Assembly (NCBI GenBank): GCA_040902225.1
Contig: JBBDXT010000002.1
Coordinates: 156,036-220,035 of the forward strand
Length of the DNA: 64,000 nucleotides
Reading direction: 5' to 3'
Source of the DNA: Chloroflexota bacterium
GTDB lineage: Bacteria; Chloroflexota; Limnocylindria; QHBO01
Below the pieces are notes generated by a model that was not told the origin of the DNA, made no database searches, and worked only from the letters and a program-made list of their open reading frames with translations. Made by a program: the position numbers and the translations under genes. Positions 27,189 through 57,205 of the stretch are shown in pieces; position 1 is the stretch's first letter; each line of letters opens with the position of its first letter.

Positions 27189-27192
27189 CGGA

Positions 27193-28809: not shown

Positions 28810-28812
28810 CGA

Positions 28813-30644: not shown

Positions 30645-30736
30645 CGGATTACCTCCTCCAAGCAATCGGCAGCGCGCCCCAACCTGTCAACCCGGTCGCC
30701 CACGAGATTCGCTGAATCGATCCTGTCTCGCCGAGG

Positions 30737-31761: not shown

Positions 31762-31764
31762 ATT

Positions 31765-43945: not shown

Positions 43946-44106
43946 CCCGCGCTGCTACCCTCTCCCAGACTCGGGCGCCCACCTGAGCCACCACTTGCGG
44001 GAGACCGATGACCGAGCTTGCCACCAACGTCCTCTACTACGGCGACAACCTCGACATCCTGCGTCGCTACCTGCCCGATGCCCAGCTGCTGGCCTTCGAG
44101 GACGGT
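43946..44106 (+). repeat. Methylase-5'-fragment repeat, copy A, with promoter and leader
   Basis: Leader with extended -10 TGCTACCCT (43953-43961), GGGAG ribosome site and ATG 44008. The 35-codon ORF reads TELATNVLYYGDNLDILRRY then LPDAQLLAFEDGRR and stops at 44113-44115. Relative to the long copy G, 31 codons are deleted exactly between two CCGATGCC octamers. The stop overlaps the TTG start of the MerB-like gene. Leader and coding part closely match copy E. Confidence 0.85.
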
Positions 44107-44111
44107 CGGCG

Positions 44112-44792
44112 TTGAAGGCTGAGATGCTTCAGCCAAATGTGCGGCTCTTCATCTTCGAGCACTTCCTCGAGCACGCCGCCCCTCCTGTCGTGGAGCAGGT
44201 CATGGCCCGCTTCTCGCTCTCACGGGCCGACGCGAAGGACGCGCTCCGCGACCTCGCGGCTGCCCGCCACATCGCGCTCGTCCCGGGGACCGACCGCATC
44301 CTGATGGCCTTTCCGTTCTCCGCCATCGCGACGCCGTTCCGGGTGACGGTAGGCGGCCGTTCCTACTTCGCCAACTGCGCCTGGGACGCGATCGCCTTCC
44401 ACGCCATGCTCGATGAGGGCGTGCGGGTCGACTCGTTCTGCCATCACTGCGCCGTGCCGATCCGCATCGAGCTGCAGGGCGGGCGCGCGACCCGCGTCGA
44501 TCCGGTGGAATCGCTCGTCTACCTCGCCCTCCGCCCGACGGAGTGGTGGGGGGACATCGTCACCACTTGCTCGAACACGATGGTCTTCTTCGCCTCCCCC
44601 GAGCATCGCGACGCCTCCGACCTGTGCGCAGGGCCCGATCAGGCCGCCTCGCTGACAGCCGACCAGATCCACTCGCTCAGCGGGCCGATCTACGCCACGA
44701 AGTTCGCCCTCGACTATGCCAGGCCGTCGAAGGAGGTCCTGCTCGCCCATTGGGCGGCGATGGGCCTTACCGGCGACTACTGGAAGCTCTGA
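44112..44792 (+). CDS. MerB-like alkylmercury-lyase family protein (copy 2)
   Basis: About 226 aa from TTG 44112, which overlaps the stop of the methylase-derived mini-ORF (TTGA); ATG 44124 is the alternative. Same architecture as copy 1: RSYFANCAWDAIAFHAML with the MerB C/D pair and VTTCSNTMVFFASPEHRDAS with the second Cys. C-Hg lyase or a related lyase. Upstream of the shared core the two copies differ completely, so copy 2 seems to have acquired a new 5' end from repeat A. Confidence 0.75.
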   Translation: MKAEMLQPNVRLFIFEHFLEHAAPPVVEQVMARFSLSRADAKDALRDLAAARHIALVPGTDRILMAFPFSAIATPFRVTVGGRSYFANCAWDAIAFHAMLDEGVRVDSFCHHCAVPIRIELQGGRATRVDPVESLVYLALRPTEWWGDIVTTCSNTMVFFASPEHRDASDLCAGPDQAASLTADQIHSLSGPIYATKFALDYARPSKEVLLAHWAAMGLTGDYWKL

Positions 44793-44810
44793 CCCTATTC
44801 AGGAGATTCC

Positions 44811-45167
44811 ATGAACAAGGTCAACCTCGACGAGAAGCTCTCGCTATTCGATGACCTCTGGAGCCCCAAGATCGTCGCCCGCCTCAATGACTACGACATC
44901 CAGGTCGCCAAGGCCGACGGTGAGTTCGTGTGGCACGAGCACGCTGAGACCGACGAGTTCTTCCTGGTCCTCAGGGGCCGGCTGGTCATCCAGATGAGGG
45001 ACGGCGACGTTGAGCTCGGCCCCGGTGAGCTGTTCGTCGTGCCGAAGGGAATCGCGCATCGCCCGCGTGCTAGCGACGGCCTGGAAGTTCTCCTGATCGA
45101 GCCTGCCGGGACCGTCAACACCGGCAACGCCGGAGGCGACCTGACCGCGGTCGAAGAGCGCCTCTAG
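44811..45167 (+). CDS. Cupin-domain protein
   Basis: 118 aa. FVWHEHAETDEFFLVLRGRL (motif 1, metal His/Glu) and GELFVVPKGIAHRPRASDG (motif 2). AGGAG precedes ATG 44811, 19 bases after the MerB-like stop, so both form one module between methylase repeats A and C. Resembles mannose-6-phosphate-isomerase-like cupins of unknown substrate. Confidence 0.82.
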   Translation: MNKVNLDEKLSLFDDLWSPKIVARLNDYDIQVAKADGEFVWHEHAETDEFFLVLRGRLVIQMRDGDVELGPGELFVVPKGIAHRPRASDGLEVLLIEPAGTVNTGNAGGDLTAVEERL

Positions 45168-45230
45168 CCGGTCATCGTCTCAGCTGGTGGTAGGCTTCCG
45201 AAACTGATACCCGTCCGCCCACGCGCGGGG

Positions 45231-45312
45231 GACCGACGCCCAGCTGCTGGCCTTCGAGGACACGTGGCACTGGGATCCATCGGCCGAGGCGACCTACGCC
45301 TACCTGACCAAC
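45231..45312 (+). repeat. Methylase-5'-fragment repeat, copy C
   Basis: Encodes TDAQLLAFEDTWHWDPSAEA then TYAYLTN, the distal part of the repeat with no start region. Its first 29 bases (45233-45261) repeat 44075-44103 in copy A with one mismatch, so the MerB-cupin module is bounded by direct repeats. It extends further into the methylase gene (YAYLTN) than any other copy. Confidence 0.85.
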
Positions 45313-45401
45313 GGGTCATCGGCTGTGGAGGCCGACGTGATCCGCCCGCACGAGGCATCGAGCATGGGCGCGGTCCACGTGGATGGTGGGCGCCGGCGAC
45401 G

Positions 45402-46313
45402 TCATCCGTGAGCCCCCTCCACCCGATCAAAGAACCGACGCATGGCCGCAATGTAGGCGTCCCGCTCCTCCACGAACGCCATGTGTGAACTGTGCTCAAA
45501 CACGGCTAGCTCCGCATGCGGGATTCTTCCTCGCATGTCCTCCATGTGGGCGGGCCACATCTCGTCGTGGCGCCCGACGGTCAGCAGGACCGGCATGTCG
45601 AGCTCGTCCAGCCGGCTGGTGATGTCCCAGCCGTTCAGGTTCCCAGTCACCGGACCGAACTCGCTCGGCCCCCACATCGTGAGGTAAGGGCCGGCACCGA
45701 AGGCCGGGCCCATGGACCGCTCTACCGAAGGCGGCCATGGGTCGAGCCGACAGAGGTGCCGCTTGTAGAAGACCATGATTGCGGCGGTGTACTCCGGACA
45801 GTCGAAGACCCTCCGCGCTTCGTGGTCGGCGATGACCCGCTCGACGTCCGCCGGTAGCCGGAGGCGGAGTTCACCCATTTCAGCAACGACACGAGGCACG
45901 GACGGTGGGGAACTGCTGATTGTCAGGCTGGCGAGGTCCGGCCGGCGATCGAGGGTGTACTGCATCGCCAGCCACCCGCCCCAGGAGTTCCCGAACAGGT
46001 GGATCTGGCCCAATTCGAGCGCGTCGCAGACCGCGGCCACCTCGGCCACGAACCTATCCATCGTCCACAGCGAAGGGTCATCTGGCCGATCGGACGCGCC
46101 GCAGCCCAGCTGATCGTAGAAGACGACCGCGCGCTGGTCCGACAGGTCGGCCAGAGTGTCGAGGTAGTCGTGGGCCATGCCCGGACCGCCATGCAGGCAC
46201 AGGAGCGGGATCCCGCCTTCCCCGTAGACCCAGTAGCGGACCGATCCACCCGGAACCGGGACGGTCCCCTCTCGCGTGAGCCGCGCGTCAGTCGACGATG
46301 GGGGTTGGGTCAT
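45402..46313 (-). CDS. Alpha/beta hydrolase, proline-iminopeptidase-like (S33)
   Basis: 303 aa. LLCLHGGPGMAHDYLDTLAD (oxyanion HGGPG), FYDQLGCGASDRP, HLFGNSWGGWLAMQYTL (nucleophile Ser), VLLTVGRHDEMWPAHM (Asp) and EHSSHMAFVEERD (His). HGGPG and GxSWGG are typical of proline iminopeptidases releasing N-terminal residues from small peptides; related amidases and lactonases share them. Overlaps the ureohydrolase 3' end by 26 bases in the same direction. Confidence 0.85.
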   Translation of the reverse strand: MTQPPSSTDARLTREGTVPVPGGSVRYWVYGEGGIPLLCLHGGPGMAHDYLDTLADLSDQRAVVFYDQLGCGASDRPDDPSLWTMDRFVAEVAAVCDALELGQIHLFGNSWGGWLAMQYTLDRRPDLASLTISSSPPSVPRVVAEMGELRLRLPADVERVIADHEARRVFDCPEYTAAIMVFYKRHLCRLDPWPPSVERSMGPAFGAGPYLTMWGPSEFGPVTGNLNGWDITSRLDELDMPVLLTVGRHDEMWPAHMEDMRGRIPHAELAVFEHSSHMAFVEERDAYIAAMRRFFDRVEGAHG

Positions 46314-47343
46314 ATCCTCGCCAGCCGTCGTGAAGTCGCATGAACAGCCCGGCCAGGAAGGTCAGGATGGCCGAGCCGAAGGTGCGGGTGGTGATCTCGG
46401 CGACGTCCCGATTCGGGTCCAGCTCGACGAAGTCAATGGCCGCCACCCGCGGATCGCGGCCCAGCATGAACAGGGCCTCCAGGAGGTCGACCGGATGGAG
46501 CCCGTCGGCGGTGGCGGCCGCGGTGCCGGGCGCGTACCCCAGCTCGAGGACGTCGATATCGACGGTGGCGTAGATCGCATCGGTCCCCTTGCCGGCAACC
46601 TCGAGGGCGGAGGCGACCATGGCCTCGATGCCGGCCTTGCGGATGGCCCGGGCGGTGTAGATCGTCCCGCCCTGTCCCTCGACCCAGCGCTTGTAGTAGC
46701 TGGCGTTCATGAACCCGTGGATCCCGAACTGGACGAGGTTCTCGCCGCGGACCTTGACCCCCGACTCGAGAATGCCCCGTATCGGCGTGCCGTTGGTCGG
46801 CCCGTGGTCCATGACGCGCACGTCGTTGTGGGCATCGAAGTGAATGAGGCCCACCTGCTGGTCGGGGTGGGCGCCGCAGTACGCCCGGACGGCTGGCGTG
46901 GTGATGGCGTGATCGCCGCCGATGATCAGCGGGAAGAACGCCTCGGGCTGGCTCATGAGCGCCTGAAGGCACTCCTGAATGTTCTCGAGTCCCGCCACCA
47001 GGTCGATGATCGGCGTCGACACGTCGCCCAGCTCGCGCACACGCAGCGTCGAGATGTCCACGTCGTAGTCGGGCGTGAATGTCGTGAAGATGGCCCACGC
47101 CTCACGCAGGGCGTTCGGCGCCGCGTAGGCCCCGTTGGGGAGGATCGAGGTCTTGCTGAACGGAACCGTGATCATCCCAACGTCGAGCGGCGAGGCCCAA
47201 TCCCAGACCTCGATCCAGTTGTTGACCCGGATCTCGTTGCGGTCGTTCCAATGGGAGATCTTCCGCTTCTCGGGCACCAGCAGATGCGGGATGTCCCGTG
47301 GCGGGCGCGGCGCTGTGTACATCGGACCCGAAGACTCAGCCAT
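46288..47343 (-). CDS. Ureohydrolase (arginase/agmatinase/formiminoglutamase superfamily)
   Basis: 351 aa. Mn-binding motifs LIIGGDHAITTPAVR, GLIHFDAHNDVRVMDHG and VDIDVLELGYAPGTA are complete. Hydrolyses a guanidino or formimino group. The N-terminal ~55 residues (HLLVPEKRKISHWNDRNE) are unusual. With an NCS1 permease and DUF1028 gene beside it, the substrate may be a purine or hydantoin breakdown product (for example ureidoglycine or guanidino acid); that is inference. Confidence 0.85.
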   Translation of the reverse strand: MAESSGPMYTAPRPPRDIPHLLVPEKRKISHWNDRNEIRVNNWIEVWDWASPLDVGMITVPFSKTSILPNGAYAAPNALREAWAIFTTFTPDYDVDISTLRVRELGDVSTPIIDLVAGLENIQECLQALMSQPEAFFPLIIGGDHAITTPAVRAYCGAHPDQQVGLIHFDAHNDVRVMDHGPTNGTPIRGILESGVKVRGENLVQFGIHGFMNASYYKRWVEGQGGTIYTARAIRKAGIEAMVASALEVAGKGTDAIYATVDIDVLELGYAPGTAAATADGLHPVDLLEALFMLGRDPRVAAIDFVELDPNRDVAEITTRTFGSAILTFLAGLFMRLHDGWRGYDPTPIVD

Positions 47344-48091
47344 CGGGTGGCCCCGATCCCCCGCCGCCCGGGCGCTGCGGCGGGGGCAGCAGGTTCATTT
47401 CGATGAACTCATCGCTCAGGCTGCCCAGCGGGTTGGCCCGGTTCGGGAGGCCCTCGACGAACGGCAACAGGTCCAGGCGAGCCACTTCGGCGACCCGGCG
47501 CAACTCGGCCACCGGCTGGGGGTGCTCGTCGACGCGCAGGTCCCACAGCGGGTACTCCTCGCGGTCCACGACCAGCAGTGCCGCGCACTGCCGGCCCCGC
47601 TTGTCCCCGCCACCCGCCTGTCCCGCCTCGAGAGCACGCATCAGTCGCTCGGCGAGGTCGAGATCGGTTCCCTCGGTGGAGCGGAACGAGTCGGCCAGGG
47701 CCGTTACCGTGTCGCCGCGGAGCAACATGTTGCCCTGGGCTGCGAAGTTCGGCCCGCTGATCTCGCCGTACCAGGTCGTACACTCGTCGCCGGAGAATGA
47801 CGCGCTTCCGCCGTGGGCATCCACGACCCCCAGCTGGCGGACGCTGCGCCCCGGGTCGTCGCGAAGCACCGCAGCCAGCGCCTCCGACGCGGACGCCCCG
47901 CCTTCCATCAGGCGGAGGGCGTCGATGGCGAGGTAGAGGCTCGGCCACGACTGGGTGGCCACCGCGCCGACTCCCGAGCGCGCCCACGTCACCAGGCGCC
48001 CGGCCCCGACGTCCGCGGTGGAGACGGCCACGCCCAACTGGCCGGTTCGCTCACAGCGGCCGACGATCGAGAAGGTGCCGAGCCGTCGCAC
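47336..48091 (-). CDS. DUF1028 family protein
   Basis: 251 aa from GTG 48091 (the frame is open much further upstream, but only as an antiparallel-frame shadow of the permease). TFSIVGRCERTGQLGVAVST, GVGAVATQSWPSLYLAIDAL and FAAQGNMLLRGDTVTALADS match DUF1028, an Ntn-hydrolase-like family of unknown activity found in amino-acid/hydantoin catabolic clusters. A second member is at 61973-62818. Between permease and ureohydrolase, same strand. Confidence 0.83.
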   Translation of the reverse strand: MRRLGTFSIVGRCERTGQLGVAVSTADVGAGRLVTWARSGVGAVATQSWPSLYLAIDALRLMEGGASASEALAAVLRDDPGRSVRQLGVVDAHGGSASFSGDECTTWYGEISGPNFAAQGNMLLRGDTVTALADSFRSTEGTDLDLAERLMRALEAGQAGGGDKRGRQCAALLVVDREEYPLWDLRVDEHPQPVAELRRVAEVARLDLLPFVEGLPNRANPLGSLSDEFIEMNLLPPPQRPGGGGSGPPDG

Positions 48092-48099
48092 CTGCCCCC

Positions 48100-49563
48100 T
48101 CAGTACGTCTCGGCCTCGTGCATGGCCGCCTCGCCGCTCGCCTCGAGCTCGGACGCCTCGGCCTCGGTCAGCCGCTGCTCCTCGGTCAGGTCGATGTTGC
48201 GGGTGAGGATCCAGTACAGGATCCCGGCTACCGGCAAGCCGACGAAGACCGATATGTCGGCGCCGCCGATGGCATCGGCCACCGGCCCCGTGTAGAGCGC
48301 GGTGCTGAAGAACGGGACCATTGCCACAAAGCCGACGAAGTAGGCGATCAGGCCGCGGGCGTTCCACGAGCCGTAGATGCCGTTCGGCTTGAAGATCTCC
48401 AGGATCGCGTAGTTCCCTTTCCGGACGACGTAGAAGTCGACCAGGTTGACCGCGGTCCACGGCGTGAGGAAGTACAGGATCAGGAACAGGAAGTTTCCGT
48501 AGCTCGTCAGGAAGTCCTCGGGCAGCAGAAGACTGCCGCCGGTGCCGAGGACGCCGATGACCGCCACCGCCACCAACCGCACGCCGCGCCCGGCCTTGAC
48601 CCGGACCACCGCGTCCACGACCGACAGCCCTGACAGGTGGCCGGAGTACATGTTCAGGGCAATGACCGTCACCATCCCGATCAGAGCGATGGCCAGGGCG
48701 AACGTGCCGAAGCCCTCGAACAGCAGGTCGCCGCCGAGAACGATGGAGCCCACCGTCGCGGCATCGGGGAAGAGGGCCAGCAGCAGCGCGCCCAGGGCGA
48801 TCATCCAGAACGACCCGAGCGCCGAGCCGAAGTAGGTCCACAGGAACGTGGCCCGCGACGTCGAACCCGGCTCCAGGTAACGGGAGAAGTCCGACACGTA
48901 CGGAGCCTGCGAGACCTGGTAGGACGCCACGGCTCCGAGGACGACGAGGAACGGCGTGAGCTGGAACTCGCCCATGACCGTGTGCTCGGCGGGCAACCGC
49001 CCCTGGAACAGGACGGTGACGGTGAAGATGCCGAACACGACGAGGAAGATGTACGTCCCCCACTTCTGGGCGAAGTGGATCCAGTCGTAGCCGACCATGG
49101 TCAGGCCGAACGCCACGACGGCCATGATGACGACCGATGCCTCGAGTGGCAGCCCGGACACGGTCGCCAGAGCGGTGCCGCCGATGATGGTGTTGAAGAT
49201 GTTGAACCCAACGAAGAGAAACACGGCGATGGCCTGCGGGATCAGCGCCCCGAGGAATCCGAATTGGGGACGTGACTGCAGCATCTGCGGAATCCCCATC
49301 CGGGGTCCCTGGACGGCGTGGAAGGCCATGAAGAATGTGCCAAAGACCTCGCCCAGGATGATGGCCACCAGGGTCCAGAACAGGTTCAGGCCCAGGCTGA
49401 TACCGATGAATCCCACGGCCAGGGTCGCCAACTCGGCGTTGGCGAGGAACCACAGGGTGAACTGGTCGCGGACCTTGCCGTGCCGTTCCGTCTTGGGGAT
49501 GTAGTCGATGTGGTGATACTCGATGACGCCCGGGGCAGGCTGCCCCTGCGCAGCAGTGGTCAT
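48100..49563 (-). CDS. NCS1-family nucleobase/hydantoin:cation symporter
   Basis: About 487 aa, twelve hydrophobic helices. HGKVRDQFTLWFLANAELAT, GPRMGIPQMLQSRPQFGFLG and PYVSDFSRYLEPGSTSRATF are NCS1 hallmarks (cytosine, allantoin, hydantoin transporters). ATG 49563 is chosen over the longer frame to 49623, because that would cross the palindromic operator at 49589-49607. Cotranscribed with DUF1028 and ureohydrolase; controlled probably by the divergent Lrp protein. Confidence 0.88.
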   Translation of the reverse strand: MTTAAQGQPAPGVIEYHHIDYIPKTERHGKVRDQFTLWFLANAELATLAVGFIGISLGLNLFWTLVAIILGEVFGTFFMAFHAVQGPRMGIPQMLQSRPQFGFLGALIPQAIAVFLFVGFNIFNTIIGGTALATVSGLPLEASVVIMAVVAFGLTMVGYDWIHFAQKWGTYIFLVVFGIFTVTVLFQGRLPAEHTVMGEFQLTPFLVVLGAVASYQVSQAPYVSDFSRYLEPGSTSRATFLWTYFGSALGSFWMIALGALLLALFPDAATVGSIVLGGDLLFEGFGTFALAIALIGMVTVIALNMYSGHLSGLSVVDAVVRVKAGRGVRLVAVAVIGVLGTGGSLLLPEDFLTSYGNFLFLILYFLTPWTAVNLVDFYVVRKGNYAILEIFKPNGIYGSWNARGLIAYFVGFVAMVPFFSTALYTGPVADAIGGADISVFVGLPVAGILYWILTRNIDLTEEQRLTEAEASELEASGEAAMHEAETY

Positions 49564-49588
49564 CTCCTGAATCCCTCTCTCCGCCGGG

Positions 49589-49607
49589 CCGATATTGACG
49601 ATATCGG
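49589..49607. promoter_or_regulatory. Palindromic operator between permease and Lrp regulator
   Basis: CCGATAT (49589-49595) and ATATCGG (49601-49607) with a 5-base spacer; TTGACG and GATAAT lie in and beside it, so it overlaps promoter elements. The size and symmetry suit a dimeric Lrp/AsnC protein acting on both divergent transcripts. Confidence 0.6.
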
Positions 49608-49662
49608 ATAATCGGCAGGACACATTCTATGGGAATCAGTCAACAGCGAGGAAGCCACTTCC

Positions 49663-50145
49663 GTGACCCAACAGACCCGGCCCGCGCGGCACCACCTCGA
49701 CGCCACGGAGCGACGCATGGTCGAGCTCCTGCAGGAAGACGGGCGGCTGACGGTCACCGCTCTCGCCCGGGCTGTGCGGGTGACCGAGCAGACCGCGCGA
49801 CGCAAGCTTCGTCGCCTGCTGGGCGACAGGATCATCCAGGTGGTCGCGACTGTCGATCCCTTCGACGTCGGCTACGAGACCCCGGTCATCATTGGCCTGA
49901 AGGTCAAGCGGGCCAAGCTCGACACGGTCGCGCGCCGCCTGAGCGACCTCCCCCAGGTCAGGTACGTGGGCGCAAGCACGGGACGTGTCGACCTCGTCGT
50001 CGAGGTCGTCGTCCGCACCAACCAGGACCTGGCGGATTTCCTCATGAACGAACTGGGCTCCATGGATGGTGTCTTGGACTCGGAGACGAACCTCATCGTC
50101 CGCATTTACAAGCAGTCCTGGTCCTGGGCCATCCGCGACGATTAG
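49663..50145 (+). CDS. Lrp/AsnC-family transcriptional regulator
   Basis: 160 aa. LDATERRMVELLQEDGRLTV, VTEQTARRKLRRLLGDRIIQ form the AsnC helix-turn-helix; VIIGLKVKRAKLDTVARRLS and VRYVGASTGRVDLVVEVVV the RAM ligand domain. GTG 49663 has GAGGA upstream. Divergent from the permease operon with a shared palindrome, so probably its substrate-responsive regulator. Confidence 0.88.
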   Translation: MTQQTRPARHHLDATERRMVELLQEDGRLTVTALARAVRVTEQTARRKLRRLLGDRIIQVVATVDPFDVGYETPVIIGLKVKRAKLDTVARRLSDLPQVRYVGASTGRVDLVVEVVVRTNQDLADFLMNELGSMDGVLDSETNLIVRIYKQSWSWAIRDD

Positions 50146-50401
50146 ACAGCGCGACGGGCACCTCGACGGCTGCGCCACCATCGACGACGCGATACACGAT
50201 CAGGTACGGCCGAGCCGAGACGTCACAGATGTACCCGTGCCATCGCGACCCAGCCGGCGCGATGAACCGCAGCTGACCGTCCCAGGCAGGGTCGTCCTCA
50301 AGGCGCTTGAGCGCAGCTTCTAACGCCTATCGGGTCTTTCCTCTTGACCTGGCGAATACACGCCGCGCGTTCTCGCTGAGGATGACCTCAGCCGCGGCCA
50401 C
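50093..50401 (-). pseudogene. RelE/ParE-like toxin gene with in-frame amber stop
   Basis: From GTG 50401: AEVILSENARRVFARSRGKT R, then TAG (50329-50327), then in the same frame LEAALKRLEDDPAWDG and HGYICDVSARPYLIVYRVVD. The second half has the RelE/ParE C-terminal sheet (YLIVYRVVD). A single nonsense codon inactivates it. Its 3' end overlaps the Lrp gene. Partner antitoxin is also truncated. Confidence 0.7.
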
Positions 50402-50496
50402 GGTCTTTCTTGGCCCGCATGGCGCTAAGGCGAGTTGCCTTCCCGGCGGCGATCTGCGATGTCCCTTCTTCCATGGCCTCGGTAATGCCAGGGGCA
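50388..50496 (-). pseudogene. Truncated antitoxin of the broken RelE/ParE pair
   Basis: Frame reads ITEAMEEGTSQIAAGKATRL then SAMRAKKDRGRG and stop, overlapping the toxin start by 14 bases as toxin-antitoxin operons do. The N-terminal DNA-binding part is missing because methylase repeat D begins at 50497. The repeat thus marks the breakpoint that destroyed the pair. Confidence 0.6.
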
Positions 50497-50693
50497 ACCT
50501 CGCCACCAACGTCCTCTCCTACGGCGACAACCTGGACATCCTGCGTCGCTACCTGCCTGATGCCGCCGTCGACCTGGTCTACCTCGACCCGCCCTTCAAC
50601 TCGAACCGCGACGACAACGTCATCTTCCGCGACGAGTCGGGCAATGCCACCGATGCCCAGCTGCTGGCCTTCGAGGACACCTGGCACTCGTGA
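50497..50693 (+). repeat. Methylase-5'-fragment repeat, copy D
   Basis: Encodes LATNVLSYGDNLDILRRYLP, DAAVDLVYLDPPFNSNRD, NVIFRDESGNATDAQLLAF then EDTWHS and a stop. Keeps the DPPF catalytic motif IV of an N6-adenine methyltransferase but no start codon, SAM motif or target domain. Bounded on the left by a truncated antitoxin and followed, 18 bases later, by the convergent HepT/MntA pair. Confidence 0.88.
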
Positions 50694-50711
50694 CCTGACT
50701 GTCCGTACTGA

Positions 50712-51050
50712 CTAGGCTTCGGGTAGACCGATCGCGTTCAGCTGCTTGAGAAGTTTGGGCAGGTCGCGGGTGACCGTTCGCCACAGGATCGCGGGATCAA
50801 CTTGCCAGTAGTCGTGCGTGACAAGGTTCCTCATCCCGATCATCTCGCGCCACGGAAGTTGTGCCAGTTCTATCTGGCGCGCTTCCGACACTCTGCCTGC
50901 GGCCTCGCCGATGACGGTGATCTTCTGAATCAGGGCCGCGGCAAGTAGTTCGTCGGTGGCCACGTCATCAGCAGTGCGGTTCTTGATGAACCGACGGGCC
51001 GCGCGGGCGGCGTCGCGGACGTCGATCAGGCGCTCGTCGTCACGCCTCAT
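50712..51050 (-). CDS. HepT-like HEPN ribonuclease toxin
   Basis: 112 aa helical protein with the HEPN active-site RX4H motif RNLVTHDYW. LIDVRDAARAARRFIKNRTA opens it. Such proteins (DUF86/HepT) cleave RNA and are silenced by AMPylation from the MntA partner. Overlaps mntA by 11 bases. The pair sits between repeats D and E. Confidence 0.85.
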   Translation of the reverse strand: MRRDDERLIDVRDAARAARRFIKNRTADDVATDELLAAALIQKITVIGEAAGRVSEARQIELAQLPWREMIGMRNLVTHDYWQVDPAILWRTVTRDLPKLLKQLNAIGLPEA

Positions 51051-51348
51051 AGAGGACCACGGCCTCGCGATCGACGGTTGCGCGCACTCGGGGTTTCAGG
51101 CTTGCTCGCGTCACCAGATCCACCCGCCGTCCGAACAGGGCTTCGAGCTCGAATGCCATGCGGACCTGCTCGAAGAGGCCCGCGTGTGAGTCCGCGGTCA
51201 GGTCCATCATCACGTCGACATCACTTGTCGCCTTCAGCTCGCCGCGCGCCGCGGACCCGAAGACGGCAAGGAATAGCACCCCATGCCGGCGCGCGAAGGC
51301 GACCAACGCGGCACGGCTCACGGACTTCGGATCAATTGCGGGTGCCAT
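51040..51348 (-). CDS. MntA-like nucleotidyltransferase antitoxin
   Basis: 102 aa minimal nucleotidyltransferase. LAVFGSAARGELKATSDVDV holds the GSX10DXD motif and a third acidic residue follows in VDLVTRAS. MntA enzymes AMPylate HepT. First gene of the toxin-antitoxin operon, reading away from repeat E. Confidence 0.87.
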   Translation of the reverse strand: MAPAIDPKSVSRAALVAFARRHGVLFLAVFGSAARGELKATSDVDVMMDLTADSHAGLFEQVRMAFELEALFGRRVDLVTRASLKPRVRATVDREAVVLYEA

Positions 51349-51391
51349 GACAAGAGCCTAGCGCACACGCGCTGACACCGCCCTGTTCTTG

Positions 51392-51589
51392 CCCGCGCTG
51401 CTACCCTCTCATCAGGCTCCGGCGCCCACCTGAGCCAAACCTCGCGGAGGACCGATGACCGACCTCGCCACCAACCTCCTCTACTACGGCGACAACCTCG
51501 ACATCCTGCGTCGCTACCTGCCCGATGCCGCCGTCGACCTGGTCTACCTCGACCCGCGTTTCAACTCGAGGCGCGACGACAAGTTGTAG
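51392..51589 (+). repeat. Methylase-5'-fragment repeat, copy E, with promoter and leader
   Basis: Leader with extended -10 TGCTACCCT (51399-51407), GGAGG near the start and ATG 51455. The 44-codon ORF is TDLATNLLYYGDNLDILRRY, LPDAAVDLVYLDPRFNSRRD then DKL and TAG. Motif IV is mutated (DPPF to DPRF). Nearly identical in leader to copy A. The next gene follows 25 bases later with its own AAGGAGG. Confidence 0.87.
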
Positions 51590-51614
51590 GGTCCCCGCAG
51601 AAGGAGGGCGTCCG

Positions 51615-51968
51615 ATGGAGCTCCATCCCGGGGTCTTCGTGTCGAACGTCACGACCAACGAGTGGCAACCCGACCCGGAGGTCGGTGGTGAGATGCACGT
51701 CTTGGTCGAGGACGAGACAGCCTATGTGGGCATGTCGCGCTTCCGGGACAAGGCGGATCTTGAGCCCTACAGCCTGCCGGAACGAGTGACAGTGCTGATC
51801 CTCGAGGGCAGCGCACGTATCGAAATCCAGGGTGGGCCGACCCTGGAACTGCGTGTCGGCGACATGGCTTCGCTCCCCAAGGGCGCCGTCATCACCTGGC
51901 ACCTGACGCTTCCCTTCATGGAGGTGTGGTTCTTCGGCAGGCCGTACGAGATGGCAAGGGACCGATGA
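51615..51968 (+). CDS. Cupin-domain protein
   Basis: 117 aa. VTVLILEGSARIEIQGGPTL and GDMASLPKGAVITWHLTLPF are the two cupin motifs with reduced metal ligands (few His). ATG 51615 preceded by AGAAGGAGGG, an unusually strong ribosome site. Six bases before the GNAT gene, so co-transcribed. Ligand unknown. Confidence 0.75.
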   Translation: MELHPGVFVSNVTTNEWQPDPEVGGEMHVLVEDETAYVGMSRFRDKADLEPYSLPERVTVLILEGSARIEIQGGPTLELRVGDMASLPKGAVITWHLTLPFMEVWFFGRPYEMARDR

Positions 51969-51974
51969 ACCAGG

Positions 51975-52805
51975 ATGCGGCAGTTGACCCACCGGGAGCT
52001 CGCCACCCTGGAGCACGAGAACTGGATCGCGTACCTGACCGGCGTTGCGAGTTGTGGCGCTCGAACCACGGTGGCCCGCACCGGCGGGGTGCTCACGCTC
52101 ATGACCGGCCTGCCGATGAACTGGTTCAACCAGATCCTGATCGAAGACGAGCACGCGACAGCGGCCGCCATGCTGGACGCCGTGATCCAGGCGCGCGCGG
52201 AGGGCATCGACTTCGTCGTTCGCCTGCGACACGGCATTGATGATCGGTTCATCCCGACGCTGATCCAGGCGGGACTCGAGCCTGAGCCGCCCCAGACGGC
52301 GACTCCCGGCATGGTCGCGTTCCCGATCGACCGCGACGCCATCGCGAAGCAAGCCGTCCCGGAGCTCGGGATTCAACGGGTAACCGACGCGGCGGGCATC
52401 GACGCCCACCGCCAGACAGCGACAGCCGGCTTCGGCGCAGATTCTGCGGTCGCCCAGGGAACCGTGTGCGCGAACCTCCTCGACCGGCCCGGCTGCGTCG
52501 TCTACGTGGGCTACGCGGACGGGGACCCCGTCGTCTCCGGGCTGGGCTGGCGCTCCGGAAGGACCATCGGTGTCTACAGCATCGCCGCCATCGCCTCGGC
52601 CCGCCGACGCGGGTACGCCGCGGCCATGACCGCTCGCATCGTCGCCGACGGTACGCTCGCGGGCTGCGACGTTGCGGCGCTCCAGGCGAGCGAGATGGGG
52701 CGTCCGATCTACGAGCGCCTTGGCTTCCGAACGGTCATCACCTACGCCGCGTATACGGCCCCGTCAGCCGATTGGCGCCGACCTGTCGGCGTCGGCCCGC
52801 GATGA
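51975..52805 (+). CDS. GNAT-family acetyltransferase with N-terminal extension
   Basis: 276 aa. First half (residues 1-115) is a divergent GNAT-like region. The second half has the acetyl-CoA motif IAAIASARRRGYAAAMTARI and ALQASEMGRPIYERLGFRTV, the typical GNAT C-terminus. Cytosolic acetylation of an unknown small molecule. Overlaps the convergent DUF1801 gene by 42 bases. Confidence 0.8.
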   Translation: MRQLTHRELATLEHENWIAYLTGVASCGARTTVARTGGVLTLMTGLPMNWFNQILIEDEHATAAAMLDAVIQARAEGIDFVVRLRHGIDDRFIPTLIQAGLEPEPPQTATPGMVAFPIDRDAIAKQAVPELGIQRVTDAAGIDAHRQTATAGFGADSAVAQGTVCANLLDRPGCVVYVGYADGDPVVSGLGWRSGRTIGVYSIAAIASARRRGYAAAMTARIVADGTLAGCDVAALQASEMGRPIYERLGFRTVITYAAYTAPSADWRRPVGVGPR

Positions 52806-53153
52806 GCCGGCGCGCTGGGCGGCAAGCAGTGCCGCGACCTTGCCCACGAGCCCCAGGGGGATAGGCTTGCTCAGCGGGAACTGGAGGGTTCCCTTTCCGG
52901 ACTTGTGGGCCGTCAGCTCGCGATCGAGCTCCTCGTCGGCGCGGGGTATCGGATAGATGCTGATGTGGCGCTTCCAGCCGGCCAAGCCCAAGTAGCCGCG
53001 GCCGTGGAGCCTGAACGCCGCGATGTCGTAGCTAATCGCCTCCTCTGAGCCCGGCACCGCCCTGCGAATCGCCTGGCGTACGGACTCGATCTTCAGCCGG
53101 ACGTCCGGCGGGAACGACGCGATGTACGCGTCCACGGACTCGAACTTCGCCAC
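52764..53153 (-). CDS. DUF1801/YdhG-like protein
   Basis: 129 aa. SVDAYIASFPPDVRLKIESV, ISYDIAAFRLHGRGYLGLAG, HISIYPIPRA and GTLQFPLSKPIPLGLVGKVA are typical of the DUF1801 family, related to frataxin-like YdhG/Fra proteins thought to chaperone iron. Function here unproven. Divergent from repeat F, 50 bases apart. Confidence 0.82.
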   Translation of the reverse strand: MAKFESVDAYIASFPPDVRLKIESVRQAIRRAVPGSEEAISYDIAAFRLHGRGYLGLAGWKRHISIYPIPRADEELDRELTAHKSGKGTLQFPLSKPIPLGLVGKVAALLAAQRAGSSRADADRSAPIG

Positions 53154-53187
53154 AACCTCACCTCCCCTGTCCGTCTGCGGGCCTCAA

Positions 53188-53326
53188 TGCTAGCCTTGGA
53201 CTCATGCCCGACCTCGCCACCAACGTCCTCTACTACGCCGACAACCTCGACATCCTGCGTCGCTACCGGAACGATGGCCAATTCCCAAGGACCGAAAGGC
53301 TGCGCCGAACGCTGGAGAGCAGGTGA
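53188..53326 (+). repeat. Methylase-5'-fragment repeat, copy F, forming a coupled leader ORF
   Basis: Extended -10 TGCTAGCCT (53188-53196) ends 7 bases before ATG 53204. A 40-codon ORF begins with the methylase sequence PDLATNVLYYADNLDILRRY (to about 53266), continues with unrelated RNDGQFPRTERLRRTLESR, and its TGA (53324-53326) overlaps the GTG start of the next gene. Promoter, start and coupling are all supplied by the repeat-derived segment. Confidence 0.85.
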
Positions 53327-53916
53327 CCGACCCGATCGCGGACGTCCTCGGCGACTACCAGGCATTCTTCGCCGGCCAGAAGGACCGGCTGCGCGCGCGC
53401 GGAATCGACATCTCGCCGTATTCGCTGAGCCACCTGGCCTACCGCGTCCCCGAGTACGACCAGTACCTCCACGTCCGCGGCCTGCTCGAGCGCCACGCCG
53501 CGGCGAACCTGGAGGGCGTCTGGAACGGGCGGCCGATCTCGATGATCCTGCTGCGCGAGCCCCTGCACGTGGAGCCGCACGTGACCGTCGAGCTGATCGA
53601 GCTGATCCCGCCGGTCCACCAGCGCGTCTACAAGATGGGGCTCGAGCACGTCGGGGTCGTGCTCGGCGATGCCGTCGACGAGTTCGCCCGGACCCATCGG
53701 GCGGCCCTCACCGGCCAGCAGTTCCAGAGTGAAGACAACGAGCCGTACTACATCCTGTTCGAGGACTTCACCCACGTGAAGTTCCACCGGTCCTCGCTCC
53801 GCGCGGTGGTCGAGCGCCAGCGCGGATCGTTCGACCGCTTCGTCCACGTCGACGATTGGGTCCCGCCGGTCGTCCGCACCGCGACGAGGGGCGATGACGC
53901 GCGCCGCACACCGTGA
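53323..53916 (+). CDS. YecM-like VOC-fold protein
   Basis: 197 aa. HLAYRVPEYDQYLHVRGLLE, GRPISMILLREPLHVEPHVT, VELIELIPPVHQRVYKMGLE and HVGVVLGDAVDEF resemble YecM-type proteins, isomerase/oxygenase-fold members with an HxxYRV start. GTG 53323 overlaps the stop of the methylase-derived leader ORF (GTGA), so translation probably depends on it. Function unknown. Confidence 0.72.
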   Translation: MTDPIADVLGDYQAFFAGQKDRLRARGIDISPYSLSHLAYRVPEYDQYLHVRGLLERHAAANLEGVWNGRPISMILLREPLHVEPHVTVELIELIPPVHQRVYKMGLEHVGVVLGDAVDEFARTHRAALTGQQFQSEDNEPYYILFEDFTHVKFHRSSLRAVVERQRGSFDRFVHVDDWVPPVVRTATRGDDARRTP

Positions 53917-53958
53917 CAGCCGAACGGTTGTGGGATATTCAGCAACAAATAGACCTCA

Positions 53959-54219
53959 GTGCCTGACCTTGCCACCAACGTCCGCTACTACGGCGACAAC
54001 CTGGACATCCTGCGTCGCTACCTGCCCGATGCCGCCGTCGACCTGGTCTACCTCGACCCGCCCTTCAACTCGAATCGCGACGACAACGTCATCTTCCGCG
54101 ACGAGTCGGGCAATGCCACCGATGCCCAGCTGCTGGCCTTCGAGGACACCTGGCACTGGGGTCCATCGGCCGAGGCGACGCACGCCTGGGCTGCGGCTGC
54201 GATCTCCCTCGCGCAGTGA
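53959..54219 (+). repeat. Methylase-5'-fragment repeat, copy G (longest uninterrupted)
   Basis: 86-codon ORF from GTG 53959: PDLATNVRYYGDNLDILRRY, LPDAAVDLVYLDPPFNSNRD, DNVIFRDESGNATDAQLLAF, EDTWHWGPSAEATHAWAA, ending AISLAQ. It contains motif IV (DPPF) and the following conserved NVIF region of type III Mod-like N6-adenine methyltransferases, then diverges after ATHA. TGA (54217-54219) overlaps the GTG start of the deaminase gene. Reference copy for comparing the others. Confidence 0.9.
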
Positions 54220-54710
54220 AGGGGACGCGGCTGGCCATGACGAGCATCGATACGGACCATCTGAGACGTGCGATCGCGATTGCCCATCGTGCGCGCGCCA
54301 ACGGCAATCATCCGTTTGGCGCCCTGCTCGTCGACGCCGCGGGCGAGCTGGTCGCGGAGGCGGAGAACACAGTTACCAGCGATGGCGATCCGACTGCGCA
54401 CGCAGAGATCAACCTCGTACGTACAGCCGGACGCCGCTTTGACCCCGACTACCTCTCGGAGTGCACGCTCTTCTCCAGCACCGAGCCCTGCGCGATGTGT
54501 GCGGGCGCCATCTACTGGGCCGGGATCGGTCGGGTGGTGTTTGCGCTGGGCGAGGACGAGTTGCGCCGCATGACTGGCAGCAACGCGGCTAGCCCGACGC
54601 TCGCATTGCCGAGCCGCGAGGTGTTCGCCCGAGGCCAGCGCTCAGTGCGGGTGGAAGGGCCGGCGCTGCTGGACGAAGCACGCGCGGTTCACGACGGCTT
54701 CTGGGGATGA
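54216..54710 (+). CDS. Nucleoside/nucleobase deaminase (CDA fold, guanine deaminase-like)
   Basis: 164 aa from GTG 54216, which overlaps the stop of repeat G; ATG 54237 is the alternative start without overlap. DPTAHAEINLVRTAGRR carries the first Zn ligand His and the proton-shuttle Glu, and STEPCAMCAGAIYWAGI the two Zn Cys. FALGEDELRRMTGSN is typical of guanine deaminase/TadA relatives. Too divergent for a confident tRNA-adenosine deaminase call; free base or nucleoside substrate is likelier. Confidence 0.85.
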   Translation: MKGTRLAMTSIDTDHLRRAIAIAHRARANGNHPFGALLVDAAGELVAEAENTVTSDGDPTAHAEINLVRTAGRRFDPDYLSECTLFSSTEPCAMCAGAIYWAGIGRVVFALGEDELRRMTGSNAASPTLALPSREVFARGQRSVRVEGPALLDEARAVHDGFWG

Positions 54711-54740
54711 CGGCGGAGGAGGCGAAAGATGGCTGAGCCG

Positions 54741-54905
54741 ATGCAGACCAACGTCCTCTACTACGGCGACAACCTCGACATCCTGCGTCGCTACCTGCCC
54801 GATGCCGCCGTCGACCTGGTCTACCTCAATGCGCCCTTCGACTCCAATCGCGACTCCAACGTCATCTTCCGCGATGAGCCGGGCAATGCCGCCCCTTGGA
54901 GTTGA
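54741..54905 (+). repeat. Methylase-5'-fragment repeat, copy H
   Basis: The ORF starts at ATG 54729 with GGAGGAGG upstream: AEPMQTNVLYYGDNLDILRR, YLPDAAVDLVYLNAPFDSNR, DSNVIFRDEPGNAAPWS. Motif IV is mutated (DPPF to NAPF). It follows the deaminase stop by 18 bases. The downstream gene reads out of it in the +1 frame: ATG 54886 (or 54874) inside the repeat is the best start of the CDP-alcohol phosphatidyltransferase. Confidence 0.87.
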
Positions 54906-55548
54906 CCGACAGTCCGGCGAGAAGTCCAGTGTTATCGGTCACCTACGGACGCTGCCGAATCAACTGACTGCGATTCGGTTGCTCGTCGTGCCCCTGATAT
55001 GGGTCTTTGCCTTGCTTGAGGCACGGGTCTACGTCGGCGCCGGTCTTATGGCCGCGCTGATCACGGACGCCTTCGACGGAATGGCGGCGCGAAGACTGGG
55101 CCTGACATCGGACTTCGGGAGCAAGTTCGACTCGATTGCGGATCAAGCGGTTCAGCTCTCGTCCATCGGGTGGGTGCTCCTGCTGATGCCGGAGATCATC
55201 ACGGACAACCTCGTCGCCTCCGCGCTTGCGCTCGGGACGTACCTCGCGTCCTTGACGGTGGGCCTGGTCAAGTACAGGAGACTGGGCAACCTCCACCTCT
55301 ACCTCTCGAAGGTGGGCGGCCTGTTCCTGTACCTTTTCCTCATCCAAGCATTCCTGGTCGGCCGATATAGCCAGCCACTGTTCCTGATGGCGGTGCTTGC
55401 ATTCACCCTGTCGTCCGTGGAGACGCTTGCGCTCCAGTTGATGTCATCCGAGGCCGATGGCGAGACGGGATCCATTCTTTTCCGGTACATCCCAGACGAT
55501 CATTGGATTCGACGCTGGGCAGGCGGGGCGCCCCGGCGGGGCGAGTGA
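54886..55548 (+). CDS. CDP-alcohol phosphatidyltransferase
   Basis: About 220 aa with six hydrophobic helices. The complete catalytic motif DG(x2)AR(x8)G(x3)D(x3)D is present in DAFDGMAARRLGL, GSKFDSIAD. LPNQLTAIRLLVVPLIWVFA is the usual first helix. Makes a phosphatidyl or inositol/glycerol-phosphate lipid in the membrane. No start codon exists between the methylase repeat and the conserved N-terminus, so translation must begin in the repeat (ATG 54886 or 54874). Confidence 0.85.
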   Translation: MPPLGVDRQSGEKSSVIGHLRTLPNQLTAIRLLVVPLIWVFALLEARVYVGAGLMAALITDAFDGMAARRLGLTSDFGSKFDSIADQAVQLSSIGWVLLLMPEIITDNLVASALALGTYLASLTVGLVKYRRLGNLHLYLSKVGGLFLYLFLIQAFLVGRYSQPLFLMAVLAFTLSSVETLALQLMSSEADGETGSILFRYIPDDHWIRRWAGGAPRRGE

Positions 55549-55558
55549 CCGGTCCTCC

Positions 55559-55960
55559 TTAGCCTGGCCGATAGGGCTTCGCCACCAGGGCCAGCAGCAC
55601 CAGGCCGACGGCTCCCAATACCCAGAACAGTGGGTCGATGATCGGAGGGCCGAAGGACCCAACGGTGCCGAGGCTTGGCACGATGACGACGGCCGCAACG
55701 AGGATCAGCAGGAGCGCTACGCCGATCGCGAGAGATCGTGCCCAGCTGGATGAGCGGAATAGCCCAATAGCCCCCACGATCGCACCAAAGGCGCCGAGAA
55801 CCAAGATCGCCGAGACGATCAGCTCCAGGCCAAGCATCGGATCGGGATCACTGATGAGCGGGATGGTCAGCATCACCGTGTAAATGAAGAGGCCGATGCC
55901 GAACAGGCCAAGGAGCAAAGCCGCGGCGCGAATACGGAGCGGGACCATCGCAAAGGCCAT
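55559..55960 (-). CDS. Four-helix hypothetical membrane protein
   Basis: 133 aa. Four hydrophobic helices: residues 11-30, 43-66, 74-95, 108-127, with little loop sequence. No family recognised. ATG 55960 is chosen over the longer frame to 56086 because the extra part runs back into the leader of repeat I. Convergent with the phosphatidyltransferase, 10 bases apart. Confidence 0.6.
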   Translation of the reverse strand: MAFAMVPLRIRAAALLLGLFGIGLFIYTVMLTIPLISDPDPMLGLELIVSAILVLGAFGAIVGAIGLFRSSSWARSLAIGVALLLILVAAVVIVPSLGTVGSFGPPIIDPLFWVLGAVGLVLLALVAKPYRPG

Positions 55961-56000
55961 CGTACGCCGGCACTGGTAGCGAAAGCCCTCGGCAATTGCC

Positions 56001-56128
56001 CCCACTGCTACCCTCTCCCCACCCTGACCATTTACTCGCGGGGGGTTCGATGCAGACCAACGTCCTCTACGGCGACACCTCGACATCCTGCGTCGCTACC
56101 TGCCCCATGCCACCTTCGACAATCAGTG
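56001..56128 (+). repeat. Methylase-5'-fragment repeat, copy I, with promoter, frameshifted
   Basis: Leader with TGCTACCCT (56006-56014), then ATG 56050 and QTNVLYGD. One TAC codon and one base are lost relative to other copies, so the frame shifts after GGCGAC, although the DNA still matches through GTCGCTACCTGCC. The ORF continues to a TGA at 56167-56169 and overlaps the GYD gene start (56154) by 16 bases. Most decayed of the promoter-bearing copies. Confidence 0.8.
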
Positions 56129-56153
56129 AGATGAAAGCTATGGAGGAAGACCG

Positions 56154-56486
56154 ATGCCGTTTTACCTGACACGGTTCAGCTACACGCCAGTTACCTGGGC
56201 GAAGCTCATGAAGAACCCGGAGGACCGCCGGGCGGCAGCCACGAAGTACATCGAATCGGTCGGCGGCAAGCTGCACGGCTTCTGGTACGCCTTCGGGGAT
56301 CACGATGGCTACAACCTGTGGGAGGCTCCAGATAACGTCTCGATGGCAGCCACGGCGATTGCTATCAGTGGTGGCGGGGCCCTGAGCTCCCTCCAGACGA
56401 CGGTCCTGCTGACGGTTGAGGAGACGCTCGCAGCCCTCCAAAAGGCCTCGTCGATCACCTACCGTCCACCCGGAGGCGAAGGATAG
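56154..56486 (+). CDS. GYD-domain protein
   Basis: 110 aa. YLTRFSYTPVTWAKLMKNPE, YIESVGGKLHGFWYAFGDHD, and SLQTTVLLTVEETLAALQKA match the GYD domain (ferredoxin-like fold, dimeric), usually with GxYD in place of GDHDGY. Small cytosolic protein of unknown role. GGAGG precedes ATG 56154 within the tail of the repeat I ORF. Confidence 0.8.
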   Translation: MPFYLTRFSYTPVTWAKLMKNPEDRRAAATKYIESVGGKLHGFWYAFGDHDGYNLWEAPDNVSMAATAIAISGGGALSSLQTTVLLTVEETLAALQKASSITYRPPGGEG

Positions 56487-56518
56487 GAGCCCTCCGGCTC
56501 GATGCCTATCGACCCGAG

Positions 56519-56542
56519 ATGGAGACCAACGTCCTCTACTAC
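56519..56542 (+). repeat. Methylase-5'-fragment repeat, copy J (24 bases)
   Basis: ATG 56519 followed by ETNVLYY, matching the start of the methylase ORF, then unrelated sequence in the same open frame (EPGRQPDRIEWRARDLQQ). The frame stays open into copy K and ends at 56701, a 60-codon composite ORF made of J, a 99-base spacer and K. Confidence 0.7.
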
Positions 56543-56635
56543 GAGCCCGGTCGCCAGCCAGATCGAATTGAGTGGCGAGCACGAGATCTTCAACAGCCAA
56601 CCGCAGGCCGTGGCCGATCAGATCTTCAGCCTCCT

Positions 56636-56701
56636 GGACCGATGACCGACCTCGCCACCAACGCCCGGCTGCTGGCCTTCGAGGACACCTGGCACGAGTG
56701 A
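56636..56701 (+). repeat. Methylase-5'-fragment repeat, copy K
   Basis: GACCG then ATG 56642 with TDLATNARLLAFEDTWHE and TGA. The middle of the repeat is deleted in frame: LATN joins directly to (Q/R)LLAFEDTWH. Stop at 56699-56701, eight bases before GTG 56709 of the next gene. Confidence 0.82.
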
Positions 56702-56708: not shown

Positions 56709-57176
56709 GTGACACGACATTCCGCGAAGGATCCAAGCACGGCCGATGGACCGCCCATGAGCAAAGAGGCGATGGATCGCTTCCTGGAGCGCCCCCTTAT
56801 CGCCCGCCTGGGGACGAGCGACGGCGATCGTCCCCGCGTCCTGCCGATGTGGTTCTGGTGGGATGGCAGTGACGTCTGGATGGAGACCAGCCCCACCTTC
56901 GCGAACTACCGCGTTCTCCGGCGCAACCCGCACGCGGCGCTCACGATCGATGAGGCGGTGAGTGGCCTCGCGATGCGTGCAGTCGTGATGCGTGGGCGGG
57001 TCGAGATCGTGGATGAGCCCCTCGACAATGTGATGATCACGGTTCGCCGCATCCATGACCGATACCTCTCGCCGGAGGAGCGAGCCTCGGACGCCGGCCG
57101 CGCGATGCAGCTCGGCAGCCACGTGTTGCTGCGGTTCATCCCCGACCGCACCATCACCTGGGACACCACGACCTGA
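56709..57176 (+). CDS. PPOX-class (pyridoxamine-phosphate-oxidase-fold) protein
   Basis: 155 aa from GTG 56709; ATG 56757 (SKEAMDRFLERP) is an alternative. LIARLGTSDGDRPRVLPMWF, DVWMETSPTFANYRVLRRNP and AVVMRGRVEIVDEPLDNVMI outline the split-barrel fold that binds FMN or F420. Likely a small redox or cofactor-binding enzyme. Last module before the LacI gene, headed by repeat K. Confidence 0.82.
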   Translation: MTRHSAKDPSTADGPPMSKEAMDRFLERPLIARLGTSDGDRPRVLPMWFWWDGSDVWMETSPTFANYRVLRRNPHAALTIDEAVSGLAMRAVVMRGRVEIVDEPLDNVMITVRRIHDRYLSPEERASDAGRAMQLGSHVLLRFIPDRTITWDTTT

Positions 57177-57185
57177 GGCGAGGGC

Positions 57186-57191
57186 TATTGT
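57186..57191 (+). promoter_or_regulatory. -10 box TATTGT of the LacI gene
   Basis: TATTGT ends 14 bases before ATG 57206. Same GGCTATT context as the -10 box of the MerB-like gene at 21615. Confidence 0.4.
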
Positions 57192-57205
57192 CTCGGGGCT
57201 GATCC

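Follow-up and report, generated by a model that had tools for sequence, protein, structure and literature searches.

Co-oriented 5' fragments of a DNA methyltransferase gene alternate with small gene modules in a probably cassette-like island of a Chloroflexota bacterium

The window analysed here is a stretch of 64,000 nucleotides (nt) from a Chloroflexota genome (C2:156036-220035 in G000, the source genome of 2.28 Mb and 7 contigs), in which 5' fragments of a DNA methyltransferase gene, all in the same orientation, alternate with small groups of unrelated genes. Copies of the repeat in G000 are lettered A to O, and coordinates are those of the window unless prefixed C2. Comparison with the congeners G002 and G003, and with G009 from another genus, supports a cassette-like behaviour of the island, in which modules have been gained, lost or moved, several of them with a repeat at the edge. 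The chances are about even that the array was produced by serial insertion at the methylase 5' end with part of the gene duplicated, followed by homologous shuffling between the copies.

Repeat copies in the source genome and its relatives

The repeat was the 5' end of a DNA methyltransferase gene. Copies showed the start types MTDLATN/MPDLATN or MQTN; some carried a leader (TGCTACCCT, GGCGCCCACCTGAGCC; beginning at about TTGCCC), and others began at the start codon. The following copies were found.

L, 31763-31836, plus strand: internally deleted methylase 5' fragment, joined to the 3' end of hemH (ferrochelatase), whose stop codon it supplies
A, 43946-44103, plus strand: leader with TGCTACCCT, start codon, codons 1 to about 22, in-frame 93-nt deletion, on to codon ~63
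B, 45200-45312, plus strand: degraded leader (recognized by eye), joined by deletion to codons ~53-80
C, 50495-50688, plus strand: codons ~3-65
D, 51388-51585, plus strand: complete leader, codons 1 to about 42
E, 53204-53276, plus strand: codons 1 to about 24, with TGCTAGCCT immediately upstream
F, 53959-54179, plus strand: codons 1 to about 73, open frame of 86 codons
G, 54729-54893, plus strand: second start type (MQTN), up to codon ~52
H, 55998-56120, plus strand: leader, MQTN start, frame-shifted, sharing a 1-nt deletion with copy M
I, 56518-56548, plus strand: only the first ~8 codons, 19 nt exact, the weakest copy
J, 56641-56695, plus strand: MTDLATN start, internal deletion, up to codon ~64
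K, C2:222073, plus strand, right of the window: 5' end of the split parent gene
M, C2:224483, plus strand, right of the window: MTE start, leader differing from that of H
N, C2:226364, plus strand, right of the window
O, C2:243043, plus strand, right of the window: degenerate

All 15 copies were on the plus strand (two-sided sign test, 6e-5), ten of them at 43.9-56.7 kb, L at 31.8 kb and four beyond the right end of the window, so that the same-strand arrangement given in the preliminary description, with modules between the copies, was confirmed and extended. The long copies were 90-99% identical over 100-220 nt. Clear similarity in the G000 copies stopped at codon ~80 or before, most being shorter or internally deleted. 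When 24 copies were aligned to the intact gene, similarity ended at nt 70-155 in about nine, at 193-197 in six and at 218-220 in three, with a maximum of about 250-255 of ~1,647, positions which vary with alignment scoring. The duplicated coding part ranged from ~20 to 255 nt, and later deletion may have contributed to this range.

Searching the genome with the repeat gave 15 rows, 14 of them on C2 and all of these on the plus strand (13 copies, A as two pieces); copies I and O were absent from this list. The remaining row, of 24 nt on C4 (minus strand), was taken as chance and dropped. Among 61 genomes including G000, a match at E <= 0.001 was obtained in 16, and more than one match only in G000 (13), G002 (12), G003 (6), G009 (3) and G012 (3), part of the matches in G002 and G012 being other, diverged methylase genes. 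Co-oriented runs were present on G002:C37 (five), G003:C89 (three) and G009:C1 (four pieces). The run of the other genus, at G009:C1:204.3-209.5 kb, is a parallel one and adjoins an XRE-TPR gene and a protein with HSDR_N and RAMA domains.

Copies fitted closely to neighbouring genes in several places. In G002 the MerB stop codon was followed immediately by a methylase ATG, and an ATGA overlap was found at copy C37c; in G000 the XRE gene overlapped copy N by 8 nt. About 15 further gaps between copy and gene measured 11-72 nt.

The parent methylase gene

An intact parent gene was identified in G002. It encoded 548 amino acids, with a PF01555 methylase domain (139 bits) and, at the C-terminus, matches to PF22722 (the 'inactive restriction endonuclease' family, 29.6 bits) and Mrr_cat (26.7 bits), both above cut-off. 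By its domain content the parent gene is a methylase joined to a restriction-nuclease-like domain, for which nuclease activity is predicted at most. Five co-oriented fragments lay to the left of this gene on contig C37, the gene being last; the array in G002 was assembled from two contigs, whose junction was inferred from a gene divided between them.

The preliminary description had found no full-length methylase, which held for the window itself; a 3' remnant of the gene was located 28.6 kb to the right. Copy K formed the 5' end, and the last ~90 codons (270 nt) lay at C2:248653-248922, with 26 kb between them and all 15 copies to the left of the remnant. The 6 kb to the left of K, with an amino-acid permease gene among others, matched the left flank of the intact G002 gene. 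To the right of the remnant, the next gene in common with G002 was that for class II ribonucleotide reductase, at a distance of 10.7 kb in G000 and of 3.6 kb in G002. These shared flanks show that in G000 the parent gene has been split. The first part of the intervening 26 kb held a 156-amino-acid gene without Pfam match, polyketide-cyclase-type and RibD-type genes, copy M, the XRE-TPR gene and copy N; the remainder held a 15-kb fucI block, an arginase-family gene, copy O, a staphylococcal-nuclease-type gene, a 414-amino-acid gene without match and a Schlafen-type helicase protein.

A search of six genomes (G000-G003, G009 and G012) with the 3'-terminal 1.4 kb of the parent gene yielded only the intact G002 gene, the single G000 remnant and the diverged methylase genes of G002 and G012.

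A copy of 147 nt (92.5% identity) of the 3' end of the ribonucleotide reductase gene was observed, at C2:251846-251992 and C2:259604-259750. The two ends flank a 7.6-kb insert in G000, while G002 has one end and no insert; the left flank was not conserved. This partial duplication is of the type seen at the methylase gene. The complete ribonucleotide reductase gene holds an intein with a LAGLIDADG domain.

Gain, loss and movement of modules

In G002 the sequence of window position 27187 was joined directly to that of 31858, without the insert of G000. The ABC-transporter and ferrochelatase genes, adjoining in G002, were accordingly 4.6 kb apart in G000, with the insert ending in copy L. Its two-component module was present elsewhere in G002 (c37rc 51050-53411), about 1 kb from a repeat. 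Likewise, hemA (glutamyl-tRNA reductase) and the L-fucose isomerase gene were neighbours in G002 and 31 kb apart in G000, with copy N at the fucose side, and the 15-kb fucI block had a different location in G002.

The PPOX gene had a repeat to its left in both genomes, of start type MTDLATN in G000 versus MNQTN in G002, and its neighbours differed, GYD in G000 versus a lumazine-binding-like gene in G002, the latter being the gene before copy C37c. MerB had a leader to its left in both. The interval from MerB to PPOX was 12 kb in G000 and held only a cupin and the lumazine-binding-like gene in G002. The gene adjoining K was found at another site in G002. Between the SnoaL and amidohydrolase genes no insert was present in G002, and G000 had 3.6 kb containing a second MerB; in G003 a methylase copy lay 1.4 kb from the amidohydrolase gene on the same side, and in G009 a methylase piece came directly after the SnoaL homologue. 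Other modules stood beside the repeats of G002, G003 and G009.

Between G000 and G002, 38 breakpoints were counted per side. Within 50, 120 and 200 nt of a repeat there were 4, 6 and 6 on the G000 side (P rotated 0.056, 0.027 and 0.092; P independent 0.036, 0.013 and 0.057) and 4, 4 and 4 on the G002 side (P rotated 0.014, 0.035 and 0.071; P independent 0.005, 0.019 and 0.054).

The integron-like layout with a coding repeat that had been proposed is supported by the co-oriented repeats and by the gain and loss of modules between G000 and G002. As for the proposal that the repeat is a recombination or insertion target building the array, comparison with the relatives supports a cassette-like turnover; a dedicated crossover site was not shown, the ends being variable and no recombinase being linked. 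Neither of the outcomes named beforehand as contrary to it, debris of one tandem duplication or a fixed gene order in relatives, was found.

Mosaic repeats

Copy H (MQTN start) and copy M (MTE start, another leader) had in common a 1-nt deletion and the CCCCATGCC variant, a G-to-C change. Copies A and D had the first start type without the variant, and G and K the second start type without it; each start type occurred both with and without the variant. Judged from these combinations, the mosaic copies show recombination within the repeats, repeated mutation being less likely. No age gradient toward the parent gene was seen when identities were read by eye.

Module genes between the copies

The modules, with families assigned by Pfam except where stated, were as follows.

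27189-31828: insert ending in repeat L; protein 27235-27606, histidine kinase and response regulator (27733-29517, minus), O-methyltransferase (29598-30629, minus), about 1 kb without called gene
44124-45167, plus: MerB-like (44124-44792) and cupin (44811-45167)
45402-50145: alpha/beta hydrolase, arginase family, DUF1028, cytosine/purine-type permease (minus), AsnC regulator (plus)
50712-51348, minus: HepT-like and MntA-like nucleotidyltransferase
51615-53153: cupin, weak GNAT (plus), DUF1801 (minus)
53323-53916, plus: YecM
54216-54710, plus: cytidine/deoxycytidylate-type deaminase
54937-55960: CDP-alcohol phosphatidyltransferase (plus), protein without Pfam match (55559-55960, minus)
56154-56486, plus: GYD domain protein
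56757-58282, plus: PNPOx-type (PPOX) protein and LacI regulator, kept in G002 behind its own repeat there

Most identities given earlier for the module genes stood up to the Pfam scan (MerB, cupin, HepT, the MntA-like nucleotidyltransferase, DUF1801, YecM, deaminase, CDP-alcohol phosphatidyltransferase, GYD and PNPOx), except that the GNAT match fell under the curated cut-off and the 55559-55960 protein had no match.

Several module genes had further features. The 3' end of YecM (53813-53922) was 96% identical over 110 nt to G009:C1:660537-660646, in the other genus, pointing to a probable recent transfer; no longer DNA-level match was found around this stretch in G009. The second MerB-like gene, recognized by similarity to the first, lay at 21633-22319, and upstream of it was ATTCTCATTGCC...CGATGACCGAC, which by eye resembled a leader with the middle deleted. 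The O-methyltransferase gene was intact in G000, and two fragments of its 5' end (corresponding to window 30589-30686) adjoined methylase copies in divergent orientation in G002 (C37 reverse complement 49767-49893 and 63673-63799).

Recombinases, mobility genes and expression signals

Nine tyrosine-recombinase (PF00589) and two serine-recombinase matches were obtained in G000, and none of the 11 was on C2:156-277 kb, the IntI-specific domain not being searched for. In these scans no integron integrase gene adjoined the array and no integrase was present in the inserted DNA. The loci (~3 kb) of the nine tyrosine-recombinase matches contained no clear repeat copy (best E 0.007, 67 nt, 72%). No transposase was found among 39 G000 proteins under Pfam scan (29 in or beside the island, 10 flanking), a set that was not widened to the whole genome. 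The earlier statement that the region lacks an integrase was thereby upheld. A ComEC match was present in G000. At G000:C2:24239-28040, another N6/N4 methylase gene (459-codon frame) stood about 2 kb from a tyrosine recombinase gene.

Viral contigs had no match to the exact 23-nt repeat core, and plasmids gave only two weak repeat matches, both in annotated actinobacterial DNA methyltransferase genes. The leader motif was considered as a genome-wide element and rejected: exact matches occurred only at array copies in G000, G002 and G009, and one-mismatch matches in the remaining genomes (16) did not exceed those of the reversed-pattern control (27). In G000, GGCGCCCACCTGAGCC was exact only at copies A, D, M and O, with one more one-mismatch match on C4. 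A functional short peptide was also considered, for which copies F, K, N, G and others had open frames; against it spoke the frameshifts of H and M, the stop in C39 and changes spread almost evenly over the codon positions.

MerB in G002 started at the leader's own ATG, and MerB in G012 started with the same 13 letters as the MQTN-type copies (ATGCAGACCAACG). A sigma70-type scan of 43.5-57.2 kb gave no promoter-like site.

Formation of the array

In the proposed course, each event would bring in a single gene or a small group, at the beginning of the methylase gene or slightly within it, and leave an extra leader and/or the first 20-80 codons behind, the gene itself being kept at the right-hand end, as in G002, and probably functional for a time during the serial insertion. 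Two routes may be envisaged: the target may have been duplicated over a long stretch on insertion, or circular DNA with part of the gene on it may have integrated by a single (Campbell-type) crossover. The copies would then offer homology for ordinary recombination, by which modules were probably moved and swapped, as the mosaic repeats, the different repeat types at one site and the moved blocks suggest. In G000 a later insertion would have split the gene itself. A leader copy or start codon abutting the next gene may drive that gene. The first step may have been illegitimate, Campbell-type or site-specific, and it is a matter of even chance that the array needed no dedicated recombinase.

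Serial insertion with shuffling is favoured by the intact G002 gene, the split G000 gene and their matching flanks; by copies that are on one strand, all to the left of the remnant or intact gene, and are 5' pieces only; and by the turnover at repeats, the mosaics, the tight gene fits, the partial ribonucleotide reductase copy and the ComEC match.

A number of observations weigh against it. Breakpoint enrichment at repeats was modest, supportive and not strong, and many indels of the region had no repeat. The comparison was between congeners and showed no single event in which both repeats were still intact. The hemA edge of the fucI block had no repeat in G002, where further fragments lay on the unplaced contigs C39, C78 and C24. 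Copies to the left of the PPOX-permease block were not simply nested in the parent gene. Only the 3' end was left of the right-hand parent copy, and beyond the remnant, conserved sequence resumed only after the 10.7 kb, except for the 147-nt piece. The older copies were decayed, their true ends being uncertain, and the remaining gaps around copies measured 85-1,133 nt. Downstream genes were co-directional at 11 of the 15 G000 copies (P 0.12), or 10 of 14 without I (P 0.18). Several 3' ends nearly coincided, at nt 193-197 in two genera (C, J, C37c, C89a, C1b and C1d) and at 218-220 in one (F, K and C39); this clustering counts against the proposed course because plain homologous events predict none. 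Near these ends a putative imperfect hairpin (CCGATGCCCAG...CTGGGGTCCATCGG) was found at window 54118-54169 (repeat nt ~158-209, codons 54-71), and the 141-nt stretch of F containing it had a z of -3.25 against dinucleotide shuffles (1/200).

The hairpin could be a candidate site for an enzyme acting in trans, and bears on the idea that modules carrying an att copy were added in tandem by an integrase encoded elsewhere, with the att site in the methylase 5' region and each addition restoring the 5' end. Such site-specific accretion would agree with the co-oriented copies, the intact gene at one end, the clustered 3' ends and the nine tyrosine-recombinase matches of the genome, but the recombinases lay away from the island, the tyrosine-recombinase loci had no clear repeat copy, and other copies ended anywhere from nt ~20 to 255. 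Nor was the hairpin clearly beyond synonymous recoding: z was -1.3 to -1.9 for F, K and N, -2.2 for the C39 copy of G002 and -1.0 for its intact gene, and the 36 most similar homologous loci, which include the G002 gene, its copies and one duplicate, had a median of 0.04. The other five of six repeat stretches folded no better than shuffles (z -0.60 to +0.76, with no attC-specific model); the hairpin was present in the array-bearing genus and absent from most relatives examined. This explanation is considered quite unlikely.

Decay by itself has a somewhat better claim, though it too is unlikely: a few old duplications of the methylase locus would have degenerated in a plastic region, the modules having arrived by ordinary horizontal transfer with no connection to the repeats. 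This fits the internal deletions, frameshifts and stops of many copies, the repeat-free indels, the modest breakpoint enrichment and the changes at the three codon positions in ten G000 copies (16/469, 10/470 and 21/466). Decay would spare 3' pieces too, however, and just one remnant was found among pieces that were otherwise 5'; moreover, the frame-shifted variant was itself recombined (H/M), and different modules stood beside the repeats of G002, G003 and G009. Less credible than either is a mobile promoter, with leader and methylase start copied before acquired genes for their expression and the coding part as passenger. Leader copies shared TGCTACCCT-like and GGCGCCCACCTGAGCC motifs, MerB started at the leader ATG in G002 or with MQTN-type sequence in G012, and gaps to many downstream genes were short; yet many copies had no leader, no sigma70-type site was found and the G000 copies were confined to one island. 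Because co-directionality reached only P 0.12, donation of a promoter is not established. The data are explained as well by promoter donation and ordinary homologous recombination as by a dedicated system.

Comparison with known systems

Integron arrays likewise have co-oriented repeats between small unrelated genes, and module turnover. The present array differed in having no linked integrase, a repeat that is a coding gene fragment of variable length, and module genes on both strands. Promoter propagation by putative mobile promoters places promoter-region copies ahead of unrelated genes, whereas the G000 copies were clustered in one island and included up to ~240 nt of coding sequence. Rhs/CDI-type toxin genes with orphan tips (PMC3967940) are a further parallel. 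Such tips are partial gene copies in a row beside the main gene, with which they can recombine. Their modules are alternative C-terminal ends of that gene, whereas here the modules are unrelated genes and the copies are 5' ends.

The closest known processes appear to be insertion with long target duplication and the minimal mobile elements. In the former (Nobusato et al. 2000, as cited in PMC3031569), long, variable direct copies of a host segment flank inserted genes, restriction-modification genes are involved and the process is linked to rearrangement. The variable lengths and the restriction-modification genes are alike, and the flanking direct copies may be; in that account, restriction-modification genes insert, whereas here a gene of this kind is the duplicated target, with 15 copies in one island. 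For the minimal mobile elements of Neisseria (Snyder et al. 2007, as cited in PMC2784325 and PMC3388099), alternative gene sets occupy one place and homologous recombination is proposed for their insertion. They resemble the array in the alternative genes at one site (the PPOX and MerB neighbours) and in the lack of an integrase or resolvase match in the region; as described there they are variable loci between core genes, whereas here the homology is a repeated gene fragment within the array. The ComEC match and the mosaic repeats may bear on exchange through transformation and homologous recombination, a further mark of such elements. No report of such an array was found among the open-licence papers listed in literature searches, which is not proof of absence.

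Significance

How bacteria lacking obvious mobile elements assemble variable gene islands is poorly understood. The islands described here hold their own record, in the form of countable same-strand gene fragments; four genomes from a single family (G000, G002, G003 and G009) have such runs, and one has an intact parent. A cassette model without recombinase is directly testable through strain comparison. It is possible, though unlikely, that the 5' end of a restriction-modification-type gene serves as a capture site without a recombinase of its own, where host recombination, or a trans-acting integrase at the hairpin near codons 54-71, would add cassettes and the duplicated leader and start codon would give expression signals, so that a defence-type gene would anchor a growing, shuffling array in this Chloroflexota family. 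If true, a restriction-modification-type gene would be tied to gene capture as the target and not as the cargo.

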